The notes under the pieces: model-generated
What the model saw: only the letters and a program-made list of their open reading frames with translations
Told to the model about the DNA's origin: nothing
Database searches by the model: none
Shown: in pieces, positions 16,109-42,989 of the stretch
Numbering within the stretch: position 1 is the first letter of the stretch
Layout: each line of letters opens with the position of its first letter
Position numbers and translations under genes: made by a program
DNA from: Brachyspira aalborgi
Lineage (GTDB): Bacteria > Spirochaetota > Brachyspiria > Brachyspirales > Brachyspiraceae
Assembly (NCBI RefSeq): GCF_008016455.1
Contig: NZ_SAXU01000001.1
Span: forward strand, 372,001-436,000
DNA: 64,000 nt
Direction of reading: 5' to 3'

Positions 16109-16483
16109 TTATTTAGCGGGAACATGAAATTTGCCTTTAGGATTTCTTAAGCATAATTCCGAAGTCAATTCTTTTATAGTATAATAAGAACTGCCGCAAT
16201 ATTTGCATGAATACATTTCTTTTTCATTGCCTTCGTAAGGAACATGATATTTTCCTTCCGTATTCTTTTCGCATAAAACTTTTGTAAGAGAGTTTATACT
16301 GCAATATTCTTCTCCGCAATATACACATTGATATTTAGATTTTTTATTTCCTTCGTAAGCGACATGATTTTTGCCTTCGGGATTATTTTGGCATAAACAT
16401 TGCCATAATAAACTTTCGCTTGAAGAGGACTTCCCGCAATATTTACAATAATATTTTTCTTCTTCTGTGTTTGTAATTGTCAT
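16109..16483 (-). CDS. Small protein of three CX2C-X14-C-X8-H zinc-finger repeats
   Basis: The 124-residue product is three consecutive ~38-residue units. Each is CxYCG, 14 residues from the second Cys to a third Cys, then 8 residues to a His within GK.HV. The spacing C-X2-C-X14-C-X8-H is exactly the same in all three, which strongly suggests each unit binds one zinc ion. Units are joined by YEGN/K linkers. No signal peptide, membrane segment or other domain is present. The role is unknown; nucleic-acid or protein binding are possible. It has a good ribosome site (AAGGAG). It is divergent from the ankyrin gene at 16896, with a heptamer array between. Confidence 0.75.
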   Translation of the reverse strand: MTITNTEEEKYYCKYCGKSSSSESLLWQCLCQNNPEGKNHVAYEGNKKSKYQCVYCGEEYCSINSLTKVLCEKNTEGKYHVPYEGNEKEMYSCKYCGSSYYTIKELTSELCLRNPKGKFHVPAK

Positions 16484-16895
16484 TTATTTCTCCTTGTTAA
16501 GATGTATTATAATATAATTATTTTTATTTTTATAAAAATTAATGTATTTATAAAAATGTAATATTATTTTTTTAATTAGAATTATTAATTTTATTTTTAT
16601 AAATATATATTTGTTAGAGTATTCAAGTTTTTGCAATTGACTACTCCAAAATTTTTTGCAATAGAAATTTCTCCCACTGGCGACTGGCGACTGGCGACTG
16701 GCGACTGGCGACTGGCGACTGGCGATTTTACAATAACTAATCTATTAATCATATTAATATTATAATACAAATTAGAAAATAAGTCAAGTTTTTACAATAA
16801 TAAAAAATATGTAATTTTTATTTTTTATTATTGATTTTTAAATTATATATAGTATCATTAATAAGAAGATTAATTTTTTTATTAAAGAGAGGATT
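16484..16895. other. Divergent intergenic region with a heptamer array
   Basis: A 412-bp gap between the divergent zinc-finger and ankyrin genes. Apart from the ACTGGCG array in its middle it is AT-rich with no ORF. Promoters for both genes must lie here, but no hexamer pair stands out enough to call. Confidence 0.5.
16676..16724. repeat. Seven tandem copies of ACTGGCG
   Basis: Seven perfect head-to-tail copies of a 7-bp, five-of-seven G+C unit (49 bp), bracketed by CTCCC and ATTTTA. It is strikingly GC-rich for this genome and not within any reading frame. Confidence 0.95.
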
Positions 16896-36061: not shown

Positions 36062-36089
36062 TTGACATTTTTTATCAATATGTTATAAT
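36062..36089 (+). promoter_or_regulatory. Consensus sigma-70 promoter of the CACTA leader / glycosyltransferase unit
   Basis: A perfect TTGACA (36062-36067), 16-bp spacer and perfect TATAAT (36084-36089). The expected start near 36096 gives a ~25-nt leader with AGGTGGAG as ribosome site 8 nt before the ATG at 36121. Confidence 0.85.
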
Positions 36090-36120
36090 TTAATCATTAA
36101 AAAACAGGTGGAGATTTTAT

Positions 36121-36192
36121 ATGTTTAGTTTGTCACTACACTACACTACACTACACTACACTACACTACACTACACTAACGCCGCATTATAA
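36121..36192 (+). CDS. Phase-variable leader ORF with pentanucleotide repeat (present frame short)
   Basis: ATG with a strong ribosome site begins MFSLS, then nine CACTA units translate as repeating LHYTT. In the present register the ORF ends after 23 codons (TAA 36190-36192). Reading from 36179 in the next frame there are 39 stop-free codons to a TGA at 36296-36298, which overlaps the ATG of the glycosyltransferase gene (36295). Adding one unit, or removing two, would join the leader to that frame. I infer a contingency leader controlling the downstream gene by translational coupling; an alternative is a small phase-variable peptide in its own right. Confidence 0.55.
   Translation: MFSLSLHYTTLHYTTLHYTNAAL
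36134..36178 (+). repeat. Nine tandem copies of CACTA (pentanucleotide SSR)
   Basis: Nine perfect 5-bp units (45 bp) inside the leader ORF. The unit length is not a multiple of three, so each slippage event changes the downstream reading frame. Confidence 0.97.
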
Positions 36193-36294
36193 ATTTTTTC
36201 GGCGATTTTTTCATTGCAAAACTAAAGAATTATTTGAAACATTTAAACGCTTTCTCTTGCGTAAATCACAACTAAATATTGAAGGCGATATTTT

Positions 36295-37872
36295 ATGAAA
36301 AATAAAAAATCGTTATTTAATACTTTATTTGAATTGTATTATTTAAATATTTACAATAAATTAAAAACAATAATAAAAAATAAAATATTTCTAATTTCTT
36401 TTATATTTATAATTTTTGTTTATATCGTAAAAATCATATTAATATCGTTTACTACTTTAATAGACGATGAGGCTTATTATGTTTTATGGACAAATCATTT
36501 GCCGTTTGGTTTTTTCGACCATGGAGCGGGAATAGCTTATTTCCTTAAATTAAGTTTAACGATTTTCGGTTATAACGGATTTGGAGTGAGAATAGGAAGC
36601 GTTATATTTTCAATTTTGGTTTCCGTATTTTTGTATAAGTTTATAAGAAATGAAAGAGACGAAAACTCCGCTATAATTTCGATAATATTATTTAATATAA
36701 TCCCATTCTTTTCTGGGCTTTCTTTGATAGTTACGATAGATACTCCAATGTTTTATTTTATTATATTTTCTATAATAGCTTATTACAAAAGTATTTTTTA
36801 CGATAAGAAATATTTTTATTTGTCGGGAGCTTTAATTGGATTTTCAATATTATCTAAAATAAATTCCGTATTTATAATATTTTCAATTTTAGTTTTTATA
36901 TTGTTTTCTTCAAAACGAAGGGAAATATTTTTATCAGTAGAATTCTATTTATCATTTTTAATTATAATTATTTTCTGTTTGCCTTTTATAGTTTATATTA
37001 TTGATACAAATTTTGCTCCCATTATTTATATAATAAAAAGACTTGGCAAATCAGGAAGTATAAACGGGACTTTAGATTTTTGGGGCACTCAAATCGGTTT
37101 ATTTAGTCCTTTATTTTTTATATTATTCGTCTATTTGATAATTAAAACTGCAGTTAAATATATTAAAAAAGAAACTTCCGAAAAAGATTTTTATTTTGCA
37201 TTTATATCGTTAATTCCATTTTTATACATATTGCAAAAATCTTTTAAAAATAAACTTGAGGCAAATTGGGCTTTGTTTATGTATGCGGGCGGATTATTTT
37301 TAGTTTCGTTTTTTATCTCTCAAAATTGGCATAAAAGATATATAAGAAATTTATTTTTTGGAAATATAATTTTTTGTATGACGGCAATATCTATAATAAT
37401 TATTCAATATTTTATTCCAATAATTCCTATAAAAGGCGACCCAACTGACAGATATTTTAATTATAACGCTATAAGGTATGATATTAAAGATTATTATAAA
37501 AATAGTATGAATAAAGATATTAGAATTTTTTCGCTTAATTATCAAATTCCTTCGATGATTAATTTTTATGTCAAGCCCGAAAAGGAAGCAGTTTGTTTGA
37601 ATTGGGACACTTATCATCCAACTTCTTTTGATTTTTGGTATAATGATAAAGATTTTATAGGCAATGATTTTTATTATATTTCTACTTCGGATAATACCGA
37701 TTTAATTTCTCAATATTTTGAAGAGTGCGAATATATTACAAATTTTCAATCGAAGCGAAAAACATTAAACGGAAAAATCAGACTGTTGGACAACTATCAT
37801 ATATTTTTATGCAAGAATTACAAAGGCAGAGGAATAGATTATATTTATAAAAACGAAAAAATAAAATTTTAA
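36295..37872 (+). CDS. GT39/ArnT-like membrane glycosyltransferase
   Basis: A polytopic transferase of the dolichyl-phosphate-mannose/ArnT superfamily, moving a sugar from a polyprenyl-phosphate donor to an acceptor on the outer face of the inner membrane. At 525 residues it has about 10-12 helices. The early loop LIDDEAYYVLWTNHLPFGFFDH (from residue ~58) has the catalytic Asp-Glu pair of the family. It continues with LKLSLTIFGYNGFGVRIGS and a soluble C-terminal part. The ribosome site is weak (GAAGG, 10 nt). Its ATG overlaps the stop of the extended leader frame, so it may be fully translated only when the repeat is in register. The acceptor is unknown; lipooligosaccharide or surface protein is plausible. 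Confidence 0.85.
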   Translation: MKNKKSLFNTLFELYYLNIYNKLKTIIKNKIFLISFIFIIFVYIVKIILISFTTLIDDEAYYVLWTNHLPFGFFDHGAGIAYFLKLSLTIFGYNGFGVRIGSVIFSILVSVFLYKFIRNERDENSAIISIILFNIIPFFSGLSLIVTIDTPMFYFIIFSIIAYYKSIFYDKKYFYLSGALIGFSILSKINSVFIIFSILVFILFSSKRREIFLSVEFYLSFLIIIIFCLPFIVYIIDTNFAPIIYIIKRLGKSGSINGTLDFWGTQIGLFSPLFFILFVYLIIKTAVKYIKKETSEKDFYFAFISLIPFLYILQKSFKNKLEANWALFMYAGGLFLVSFFISQNWHKRYIRNLFFGNIIFCMTAISIIIIQYFIPIIPIKGDPTDRYFNYNAIRYDIKDYYKNSMNKDIRIFSLNYQIPSMINFYVKPEKEAVCLNWDTYHPTSFDFWYNDKDFIGNDFYYISTSDNTDLISQYFEECEYITNFQSKRKTLNGKIRLLDNYHIFLCKNYKGRGIDYIYKNEKIKF

Positions 37873-37954: not shown

Positions 37955-38203
37955 ATGTTTCAAAAAGCTAAAATTTTTAATAACGGACATTCTCAAGCCG
38001 TTCGTTTGCCAAAAGAATTTCGTTTTGAAAGCAAAGAGGTTATTATTCGCAAAGTTGAAAATGGAGTTTTGCTTATGTCGCAAGATAAAAATATATGGAA
38101 AAATTGGTTTGATAATTTGGAGGAATTTTCAGAAGATTTTACAAAAATTTTAGATAGCAGAGAAATTAATCAAAATAATCAAAAACGAGAGGATTTATTT
38201 TGA
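37955..38203 (+). CDS. vapB: VapB-type antitoxin (AbrB/SpoVT fold)
   Basis: An 82-residue antitoxin with an N-terminal swapped-hairpin DNA-binding domain (KAKIFNNGHSQAVRLPKEFRF, EVIIRKVENGVLL) and an acidic C-terminal tail (residues ~45-82) that should wrap the toxin. TAAGGA precedes the ATG. The TGA stop overlaps the toxin start codon, the usual type II order with antitoxin first. It probably autoregulates. Confidence 0.9.
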   Translation: MFQKAKIFNNGHSQAVRLPKEFRFESKEVIIRKVENGVLLMSQDKNIWKNWFDNLEEFSEDFTKILDSREINQNNQKREDLF

Positions 38204-38601
38204 AAAAATTAATGCTTGACACTAATATTTGTATTTACATTATTAAAAATAAACCGTTAAATGTTAGAAAAAAATTTGAAAGTTATAATTTTGGCGAAAT
38301 TGCAATATCGAGCATTACAGTTTCCGAGCTTTATTACGGAGCTTATAAAAGTTCTAAACAAGAGCAAAATTTATTAAGTTTGAATAATTTTTTATCTCCG
38401 TTTAATATTATAGAATTTGATATAGAATGCGCTTTAGCTTATGGAAAGATAAGAGCGGAACTTGAAAATAAAGGACAAATAATAGGTTGTATGGATATGC
38501 TTATCGCTTCTTGCTCGCTTGCGAAAAATTTTACCCTTATTACAAACAATATAAAAGAATTTAAGCGTATAAAAGGTTTGAAAGTTGAGAATTGGATTTA
38601 A
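38200..38601 (+). CDS. vapC: VapC-type PIN-domain ribonuclease toxin
   Basis: A 133-residue PIN nuclease. The acidic active-site set is visible: MLDTNIC (Asp near residue 7), SELYYGA (Glu near residue 44), GCMDMLIA (Asp near residue 98) and ITNN late. The family cuts tRNA or rRNA. The TTG start (38200) is chosen because GAGAGGA lies 6 nt upstream and it overlaps the vapB stop; an ATG four codons later also fits the fold. Full length and apparently intact. Confidence 0.9.
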   Translation: MKKLMLDTNICIYIIKNKPLNVRKKFESYNFGEIAISSITVSELYYGAYKSSKQEQNLLSLNNFLSPFNIIEFDIECALAYGKIRAELENKGQIIGCMDMLIASCSLAKNFTLITNNIKEFKRIKGLKVENWI

Positions 38602-40292: not shown

Positions 40293-42989
40293 ATGAGAAA
40301 AATTAAAAACAATAATGACAAAAAAGATAATTTACTTTCGCTCGGCAAATCATATTGCAAAAATAAAGAATACGAAAAAGCTATAAAAACTCTTTTAGAA
40401 TTTGCAAAATTAAATCCTAATAACTCCGAATGCTTATATTATTTAGGGCGTTCGTATAATGAAACAGACGAATACGATAAAGCGATAAAATATTTATTAA
40501 AGTCTATAAAATTAAATTCAAACGATTATATTGCTTTGCATTGGTTGGGACGCTCATATTTTGAAAATGACGAATATAAAAAGGCAATAAAATATTTATC
40601 GAAAGCTATAAAATTAAATAGCAAAAATAAAACCGTAGAACCTTATAACGATTATAGTTTATATTGGCTTGGTTGTTCATATTGTAAAAATAATCAATTT
40701 AGAGAGGCAATAAATACTTTGTCTAAATTAATAAAATTAGAGCCAAAGGAATATCTTAACTTTCATTGGTTAGGATGTTCTTATTATGGAAATGAAGAAT
40801 ACGATAAAGCAATAGAATATTTACTAAAAGCGATTGAATTAAATCCTGACGATTTTTTAAATTTTCATTGGTTAGGTTGCTCATATTTTGAAATTGGAGA
40901 TTATAAAAATGCTATAAAAATTTTATTAAAATCCATAGAATTGAATTTTGATTATTATCCTAATTATAATTGGCTTGGTTGTTCGTATTACGAAATCGGA
41001 GAATATAAACAAGCTATAAAATCTCTTAAAAGAGCGTTAGAATTAAATAAAGAAGATAGCAGTAATTGGTATTGGTTAATTCTTTCGTATCATAAAAATA
41101 AACAATTTGAAAATGCAATTAAATGTTATATCGAAGCTATAGAATTTAACAATAAAAACGAATATAAAGAAACTCTCAAATCGTTATTAAATGATATTGG
41201 TTTTAATGAAAATAATGCAAATAGTTGGGTTGTTTTAGGACATTTATATAATAAAGATAAACGGTATGCGGACGCTATAAAATGTTTTTTGAAAGCGATT
41301 GAATTAAACAAAAATGAATATAATTATTTTGAGTGGCTTGGAATTTCCTATTGTAAAAATAAGCAATATAAAGAGGCGATAGAAAATTTATTAAAATCTA
41401 TTGAATCAAAATCTGACAATTTTTCGACTTGGTTTTGGCTTGGAGCTTCTTATTATGAAAGTTTTCAATATAAACAAGCGGTAGAATCTTTATTAAAATC
41501 TTTAGAATTAAACCCAAGTAAAGAAGCTAAAGACGATATAGAATATTTATTAAGAGAAATTGGCAATTCTTATTTTCAAATCGGAGAATATGAAAATTCT
41601 ATAAATCTATGTTCTAAAGCGATTGAATTAAACAATAATAATTATCTTAATTGGCAACTTTTGGGAAGCATTTTCTTTGAAACGAAACAATTTCAAAACG
41701 GCGTGAAAGCTTTTTTAAGAGCTATGATATTAAACGAAAATGAAGAATATAAAAAGTTTATAGAACAAATATTAAAAAATATCGGTTTTGATATTAATAA
41801 CCCTGAAAATTTGAGCGGTTTGGGTTATTATTATTTTGAAATTGGAAAATATGAAGAAGCTATAAAATATTTATTAAAAGCTGTCGAATCAAACAATAAC
41901 GATAGCAAATCTTGGCAATGGCTTGGTTGTTCTTATCATGAAAGCAAACAATACGAAGAAGCGATTAAATCGTTATTAAAAGCAATCGAATTAAACCCAA
42001 GCGATAGTAAAAATTTTCAATGGTTAGGCGGCTCGTATCTTCAAAATAAAAATTATAAAGAATCTATAAATTCCTTAATTAAAGCGATTGAATTAGACGC
42101 TAAAAATTCTACGGAAGATTTTACGAATTATTTTATATTGGGGAAAGCGTATTTTGAAAATAATCAATATAAAGAATCTATAGAGAGTTTTTTGAAAGCA
42201 GTAGAATTAAACCCTTCAAATCATTTTAATTGGCAATGGCTTGGAATTTCTTACAATAAAAACGGAGAATTTGAAAAATCGATTGAAGCGTTAATTAAAG
42301 CTAACGAATTAAATTCGGAAGATGTCGGTAATTGGTATTGGCTCGGCATCTCTTATAATAAAAGCAAACAATACGAAAAAGCAATTGAATCTTTTAATAA
42401 AACTATCGAATTAGAACCTGAAAACGATAATCATTATTATTGGCTTGGAAATACTTATTATAAAATATGCGATTATGAGGAAGCTATAAAATATTTATCA
42501 AAAGCGATTGAAATTAATCAAAATAGTTCTATTAATTATAAATGGCTTGGGATGGCTTATTATACAATTGAAAAATATAAAGAAGCTTCGGAAAATCTTT
42601 TAAAATCGTCTTTATTATTAGATAGCGATTTTGAAACTTGGCGATTTTTAGGCAATTCTTATTTATTATTGAAAGATTATTATAACGCTTTTCATTCTTT
42701 TGAAAAAGGAATTGATTTTAATAAAGGTATTGAGATTAATTCAAATAATGATTATATTTTAAAAGAATCTGGAATTGATATTAATGATTCGTCCGCTATA
42801 GTCGTAATTAATGATAGTTCTATATTAAATAATTATGGCGTGGTTTTGGCTAATCTTAATAGAATTGAAGAAGCTAAAAAATATTTTGAAAAAGCTTTAG
42901 AGATAAATCCTAATAATGAAATGGCTAAAGATAATCTTAATAATTTAAATTCGTATTTGGATATTGAGAATTTGCATATACAAAAATAG
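40293..42989 (+). CDS. Giant TPR protein with WxWLG-type repeats
   Basis: An 898-residue, apparently cytoplasmic protein without signal or membrane segment. It consists of about 24 TPR-like units of ~34 residues following YxxAIKxLLKAIELNPxxxxNWxWLGxSYxExxQ, in which the usual TPR position is Trp-Leu-Gly. Units are very similar in DNA sequence, inviting recombination. N- and C-terminal units match the broken paralogue at 44013-45110. It has GAGG before the ATG. No catalytic domain; probably a protein-binding scaffold. Confidence 0.85.
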   Translation: MRKIKNNNDKKDNLLSLGKSYCKNKEYEKAIKTLLEFAKLNPNNSECLYYLGRSYNETDEYDKAIKYLLKSIKLNSNDYIALHWLGRSYFENDEYKKAIKYLSKAIKLNSKNKTVEPYNDYSLYWLGCSYCKNNQFREAINTLSKLIKLEPKEYLNFHWLGCSYYGNEEYDKAIEYLLKAIELNPDDFLNFHWLGCSYFEIGDYKNAIKILLKSIELNFDYYPNYNWLGCSYYEIGEYKQAIKSLKRALELNKEDSSNWYWLILSYHKNKQFENAIKCYIEAIEFNNKNEYKETLKSLLNDIGFNENNANSWVVLGHLYNKDKRYADAIKCFLKAIELNKNEYNYFEWLGISYCKNKQYKEAIENLLKSIESKSDNFSTWFWLGASYYESFQYKQAVESLLKSLELNPSKEAKDDIEYLLREIGNSYFQIGEYENSINLCSKAIELNNNNYLNWQLLGSIFFETKQFQNGVKAFLRAMILNENEEYKKFIEQILKNIGFDINNPENLSGLGYYYFEIGKYEEAIKYLLKAVESNNNDSKSWQWLGCSYHESKQYEEAIKSLLKAIELNPSDSKNFQWLGGSYLQNKNYKESINSLIKAIELDAKNSTEDFTNYFILGKAYFENNQYKESIESFLKAVELNPSNHFNWQWLGISYNKNGEFEKSIEALIKANELNSEDVGNWYWLGISYNKSKQYEKAIESFNKTIELEPENDNHYYWLGNTYYKICDYEEAIKYLSKAIEINQNSSINYKWLGMAYYTIEKYKEASENLLKSSLLLDSDFETWRFLGNSYLLLKDYYNAFHSFEKGIDFNKGIEINSNNDYILKESGIDINDSSAIVVINDSSILNNYGVVLANLNRIEEAKKYFEKALEINPNNEMAKDNLNNLNSYLDIENLHIQK

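Follow-up and report, generated by a model that had tools for sequence, protein, structure and literature searches.

A short leader open reading frame (ORF) carrying nine CACTA units precedes a glycosyltransferase gene of Brachyspira aalborgi and is quite likely phase-variable: on the evidence of its frames, it would deliver ribosomes to the glycosyltransferase in only one repeat register. The leader lies in a stretch of 64,000 nucleotides that was analyzed as a whole and is referred to here as the window. Its anatomy, its registers, and their recurrence in B. aalborgi and B. catarrhinii, and in a looser form at other leaders of the genus, can be read directly from the DNA. From these we infer an effect on expression, in which coupling and transcription termination would each have a share. 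B. aalborgi seems to apply the same plan throughout its genome, with many unrelated 5- and 7-nt units and often upstream of glycan-modifying enzymes and lipoproteins.

The CACTA leader and the glycosyltransferase gene

An earlier note on this DNA had described a promoter, a Shine-Dalgarno sequence, and an ATG that open an ORF with nine CACTA units, a present register of 23 codons, an alternative frame of 39 codons, and an ATGA overlap with the following gene. We found every one of these elements, each at the same position as before.

36062..36089, + strand: leader promoter TTGACA-16-TATAAT, a 12/12 match with an extended TG
36106..36113, + strand: Shine-Dalgarno sequence of the leader ORF, AGGTGGAG
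36121..36192, + strand: leader ORF in the present nine-unit register; ATG at 36121, 23 codons, stop codon TAA inside the hairpin loop
36134..36178, + strand: perfect (CACTA)9 array
36179..36298, + strand: leader coupling frame; 39 codons plus TGA (36296-36298), encoding the conserved TPHYKFFRRFFHCKTKELFETFKR segment
36180..36211, + strand: hairpin CGCCG/CGGCG followed by A and TTTTTT, directly 3' of the array; weak and terminator-like, -6.2 kcal/mol
36282..36285, + strand: weak Shine-Dalgarno sequence AAGG of the glycosyltransferase, inside the leader frame
36295..36298, + strand: ATGA overlap of the leader TGA with the glycosyltransferase ATG, reached in the 10-unit register
36295..37872, + strand: predicted glycosyltransferase of the PMT_2 / GT-C type, 525 aa; Pfam PF13231, 98.6 bits (cut-off 26.1)

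Judged by its sequence, the leader consists of a frame-shifting simple sequence repeat (SSR) within an ORF that has its own promoter and ribosome-binding site and is predicted to be translated. The leader ATG enters the coupling frame when the array has 10 or 7 units and not when it has 9 or 11, which bears out the previous calculation that a gain of one unit or a loss of two opens that frame. In the 10-unit register, as in the 15 related copies described below, the upstream frame terminates on the downstream start codon. The three registers stop at +1, +14, and +120 relative to the array, and thus at, in, or beyond the hairpin. A standard terminator scan called no terminator at this leader because its loop limit is 8.

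These features suggest a model in which the strong promoter drives the short leader ORF and slipped-strand mispairing, presumably within a strain, alters the number of units in its pentamer array, thereby shifting the frame in which the sequence 3' of the array is read. At 10 or 7 units, ribosomes would translate through the hairpin and all 39 codons of the tail to the ATGA on the glycosyltransferase start; there they could re-initiate, and the mRNA would remain covered. Ribosomes in either of the other registers would meet a stop codon no more than 14 nt past the array, leaving about 100 nt untranslated ahead of the gene. Such an early stop should reduce expression of the gene through lost coupling, termination at the hairpin with its T-run, or polarity. 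Sequestration of the downstream Shine-Dalgarno sequence was considered as the reason for coupling and rejected: RNA structure at the downstream start does not exceed that at control starts (mean unpaired values of 0.47 and 0.38 versus 0.46 at control starts). Since it is no more hidden than ordinary starts, the OFF registers may not be fully off, and initiation at the downstream start without coupling is possible.

The Pfam PMT_2 match, far above its cut-off, fits the GT39/ArnT-like class to which the enzyme had been provisionally assigned; a search by sequence for solved structures of the glycosyltransferase returned none. Orthologues in other Brachyspira are 59-71% identical, and about ten genomes of the genus contain close ones. 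In two of these genomes the orthologue is preceded by an unrelated leader with (AAACAGC)10 or (AAACAGC)9, the flanks of which are 95% identical; both leaders have one long register of three and two that stop immediately. A third orthologue, in relative G010, has a pentamer array that reads into the enzyme's own N-terminus. Most other members of the genus with this glycosyltransferase have another gene or plain intergenic DNA in front of it and no repeat leader. Directly behind the gene in the window (37955-38601) lies an ORF pair that resembles an AbrB-like antitoxin and a PIN-domain toxin (VapBC-like), and 40293-42989 encodes a predicted 898-aa protein with many TPR-like repeats.

The window contains a second leader ORF of the same design with heptamer units.

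16597..16752, - strand: second leader ORF with (CGCCAGT)7; heptamer array at 16676-16724
16112..16483, - strand: gene that follows the heptamer leader; 124 aa with a zinc-finger-like N-terminus

With 8 units, the stop codon of this leader would directly abut the ATG of the gene that follows. Another copy of the CGCCAGT leader (L125, at G000:C1:2419171) also has 7 units, and 8 would give an ATGA overlap.

A dispersed cassette in B. aalborgi and B. catarrhinii

The CACTA leader belongs to a cassette composed of a promoter, a leader ATG, a pentamer array, a short hairpin with a T-run, and a frame for a conserved peptide, FFHC..K.LF. Copies are dispersed, with 16 in the B. aalborgi genome and 5 in that of B. 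catarrhinii. A search of 26 genomes of the genus with a profile of the tail peptide returned these copies and a single other match, which was marginal (E 8e-4). The cassettes have two repeat types, CACTA and ACAAT. Arrays of at least 4 CACTA units occur at 13 places in the B. aalborgi genome, 12 of which belong to the cassette; these 12 have in common the promoter, the start ATGTTTAG, and a T-run with an at least partial hairpin directly after the array, and many also have the tail CATTGCAAAACTAAAGAATTATTTGAAACATTTAAACGC. Four further B. aalborgi copies begin with ATGAGCGGA and have the pentamer ACAAT and a different hairpin, yet contain the same tail and peptide. All five copies in B. catarrhinii are of the ACAAT type. 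The promoter that precedes the (CACTA)9 leader also precedes other cassette copies. Paralogous cassettes have from 6 to 23 units within flanks that are up to 96-99% identical.

Beyond the genus, a GTDB-wide scan with a DNA pattern gave matches that fit the cassette only in B. catarrhinii; the remaining matches, dispersed over unrelated phyla, were attributed to chance. A search of viral contigs returned one match, which was without the cassette, and an Rfam search returned no match. Weak matches to the AT-rich tail within the genus (L093, L094, L098, L099, and L103) were without the cassette motif and were dropped. Two contigs of the B. aalborgi assembly (C3 and C4 of G000) terminate inside cassette copies with the same tail (L019 and L020), in which the 5' hairpin arm is lost; the assembly therefore breaks at this repeat family.

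The register logic recurs with the cassette. In 15 of about 19 copies that could be assessed, one of the registers runs to an ATGA overlap with the gene that follows: the TGA that closes the FFHC..K.LF frame forms a four-base overlap with the ATG downstream. This overlap is maintained across several unrelated tails and differing downstream genes, and a dinucleotide-shuffled tail keeps the conserved-peptide frame open only about 10% of the time. The downstream genes are mostly surface-glycan genes and encode members of the PMT_2, radical SAM, methyltransferase, polysaccharide pyruvyl transferase, nucleotidyl transferase, and GT2 families. The cassettes without the ATGA overlap are L013, L016, L124, and L130; the leader of L124 is currently fused in frame with its gene, and that of L130 overlaps a GT11 gene by 11 bases in place of the ATGA. 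In 2 of the 15 copies (L018 and L122), the short ORF reached by the overlap looks decayed.

Scoring of the current state of 37 registers placed 6 in the coupled register (P 0.03), 23 one unit short of it, and 8 two units short. The excess of registers one unit short (23/37; P 0.001 versus equal shares) is not predicted by a simple switch model. One guess is that slippage biased toward loss of one unit from the ON state would give this excess.

The hairpin bears on an alternative in which the main switch is pil1-type attenuation of transcription; the position of the ribosome, set by the register, would decide whether transcription terminates at the hairpin and T-run, and the ATGA overlap would be secondary. 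A precedent has been proven experimentally in S. gallolyticus, where the pil1/pil3 leader contains GCAGA repeats and confers attenuation-like phase variation (PMC3894217). In pil1, the OFF register stops tens of nucleotides upstream of a strong terminator (-18.7 kcal/mol), the ON state corresponds to a stop within the hairpin or immediately ahead of it, and pilA has its own ribosome-binding site downstream of the terminator (PMC3894217). Most cassettes contain a hairpin with T6 directly after the array, and both of its arms differ between the CACTA type (CGCCG/CGGCG) and the ACAAT type (AGCCA/TGGCT) with pairing kept. In four relatives, an orthologous lipoprotein gene is preceded by a CACTA leader that differs in sequence, and the long frame of these leaders contains a strong hairpin (-20 to -23 kcal/mol). 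(A further relative, G008, has CACTA leaders before paralogous lipoproteins at L033, L042, and L096; the one scanned, L042, contains BNR (sialidase-like) domains.) Nevertheless, we regard attenuation as a doubtful candidate for the main switch. The hairpin in the window is weak and is weakened or lost in four cassette copies (L016, L018, L019, and L020), and terminator-like hairpins (shuffle fraction <= 0.1) are not general among the other repeat leaders sampled in the genome, occurring in only 5 of 23. Moreover, all registers here stop at, in, or beyond the hairpin, and in pil1 a stop at such a place means ON. We favor translational coupling and coverage of the mRNA as the probable main effect, with termination as a possible helper in the cassettes, because all of the leaders have in common that one register reaches the next start, while the hairpin is weak in the window and not general, and the downstream start is not specially hidden.

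Repeat leaders across the B. aalborgi genome

The B. aalborgi genome comprises 2,504,147 bases in 8 contigs. We searched a sample of 984 kb (about 39% of the genome), consisting of the window and 46 stretches of 20 kb that were spread by hand and not at random, for perfect arrays of at least four units. The sample contained 32 such arrays, 24 with 5-nt units and 8 with 7-nt units, and none with units of 4, 6, or 8 to 11 nt. Dinucleotide shuffles of the 984 kb yielded 0 arrays; for this reason, and because the layout recurs at many loci, the array in the window is not a product of chance. The same search in two other genomes of the genus found 0 arrays in 120 kb and 1 in 160 kb. Extrapolation from the B. 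aalborgi sample (about 32 arrays per Mb) gives roughly 80 arrays in the genome.

Leaders were assigned to genes by rule, which called for a start codon whose frame runs into the array and, downstream, a gene that has a Shine-Dalgarno sequence; 23 of the 32 arrays qualified. At all 23, one of the three registers is open to the gene start, compared with 3.6 expected by shuffling (P about 1e-30); where candidates existed on both strands the better one was kept, which introduces a slight bias toward a match and affects few loci. Relative to the ATG, 17 of these registers end at positions from -35 to +16 nt; the other 6 are fused in frame. Promoters that match the consensus at 11 or 12 of 12 positions precede 19 of the 23 leaders versus 52 of 432 control ORF starts (Fisher P about 3e-13). 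The genes that follow the sampled arrays include FkbM methyltransferases, GT61, a GT10 fucosyltransferase, a PTS permease, lipoproteins, a possible outer-membrane barrel, TM2 proteins, and a dynamin-like GTPase.

Two smaller groups of leaders deserve mention. In L202, L206, L222, L223, and similar leaders, the -10 box ends just 7 to 9 nt upstream of the leader ATG, and their mRNA may therefore be leaderless. L214, L216, and L218 have AAGCA arrays before paralogous lipoproteins (MKHTKNILKSLLITVMALSLL); their long register continues in frame into the gene through the gene's own start, which has a Shine-Dalgarno sequence.

Together, these results make it reasonably likely that on the order of 80 B. 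aalborgi genes, many of them for surface glycans or lipoproteins, are under a common design, in which a near-consensus promoter precedes a leader ORF that contains a 5- or 7-nt repeat and the tail is kept open in one frame to an overlap with the next start. Because unrelated units and tails share this one design, selection would act on the register logic and not on one sequence. Coupling through a slippable, separate leader, as the earlier note had proposed, is strongly supported by the preservation of the coupling frame in many copies despite different tails and genes; a graded rheostat and the picture of a single oddity gain no such support. Nor is the layout unusual, as had been thought; it is standard in this genome, and a repeat-bearing leader peptide that controls the operon behind it is known from S. 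gallolyticus pil1/pil3 (PMC3894217).

The frame statistics also speak to the possibility that the repeats are neutral microsatellites in leader ORFs, array length being non-regulatory and the leader peptide, or the act of translating it, serving another purpose. Tolerance of many array lengths, from 6 to 23 units, would fit such neutrality, but neither the strict limit to frame-shifting unit lengths nor the open register at 23 of 23 leaders is expected from it, and we consider it very unlikely. A classical contingency locus, with the repeat in the coding sequence of the regulated gene and a leader-enzyme fusion as the product, is in keeping with the registers fused in frame at 6 of 23 sampled loci, the present fusion at L124, and the array within the enzyme frame of the G010 orthologue, but it is highly improbable and is refuted for the window by the frames: there and in 15 cassettes the long frame ends at the ATGA, out of frame with the gene, so that no register fuses leader and gene.

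Relation to known phase-variable systems

In Neisseria opa (CTCTT), Haemophilus licA (CAAT), and other SSR contingency loci, the repeat lies in the regulated gene's own frame. The B. aalborgi leaders resemble them in that short repeats with a length not divisible by three would switch the frame and that surface molecules are targeted. However, the array lies in a separate leader that overlaps the gene and not in the gene's coding sequence. Translational coupling at ATGA involves stop and start codons that overlap by four bases. The leaders differ from ordinary coupling of this kind in that the upstream frame reaches the overlap in just one of three repeat registers.

The leader design separates the mutable repeat from the enzyme; many different genes could therefore be made switchable by the addition of a leader. 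If our reading is true, the B. aalborgi repertoire would be among the larger ones of SSR phase variation. The papers searched contained nothing relevant on phase variation or simple sequence repeats in Brachyspira, and to judge by them the repertoire would be the first reported in this genus. A bacterium that commonly inhabits the epithelium of the human colon would then carry a large combinatorial set of stochastic switches of surface chemistry, and dozens of natural replicates would be available for testing the rule that relates register to expression.

The nearest described mechanism is that of S. gallolyticus pil1/pil3. In both systems, a separate ORF for a leader peptide holds a pentamer repeat and has its own promoter and ribosome-binding site, and a register-dependent stop is combined with a hairpin and T-run ahead of regulated genes that have a surface function. 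The leader in the window is similar in its predicted working, but we do not file it as a member of the pil1 type because its register stop positions and its overlap with the gene differ: the B. aalborgi hairpin is weak, no register stops well before it, and the presumed ON register runs into the gene start at the ATGA. The two systems also differ in scale. Two loci have been described for pil1/pil3, whereas the B. aalborgi sample points to about 80.
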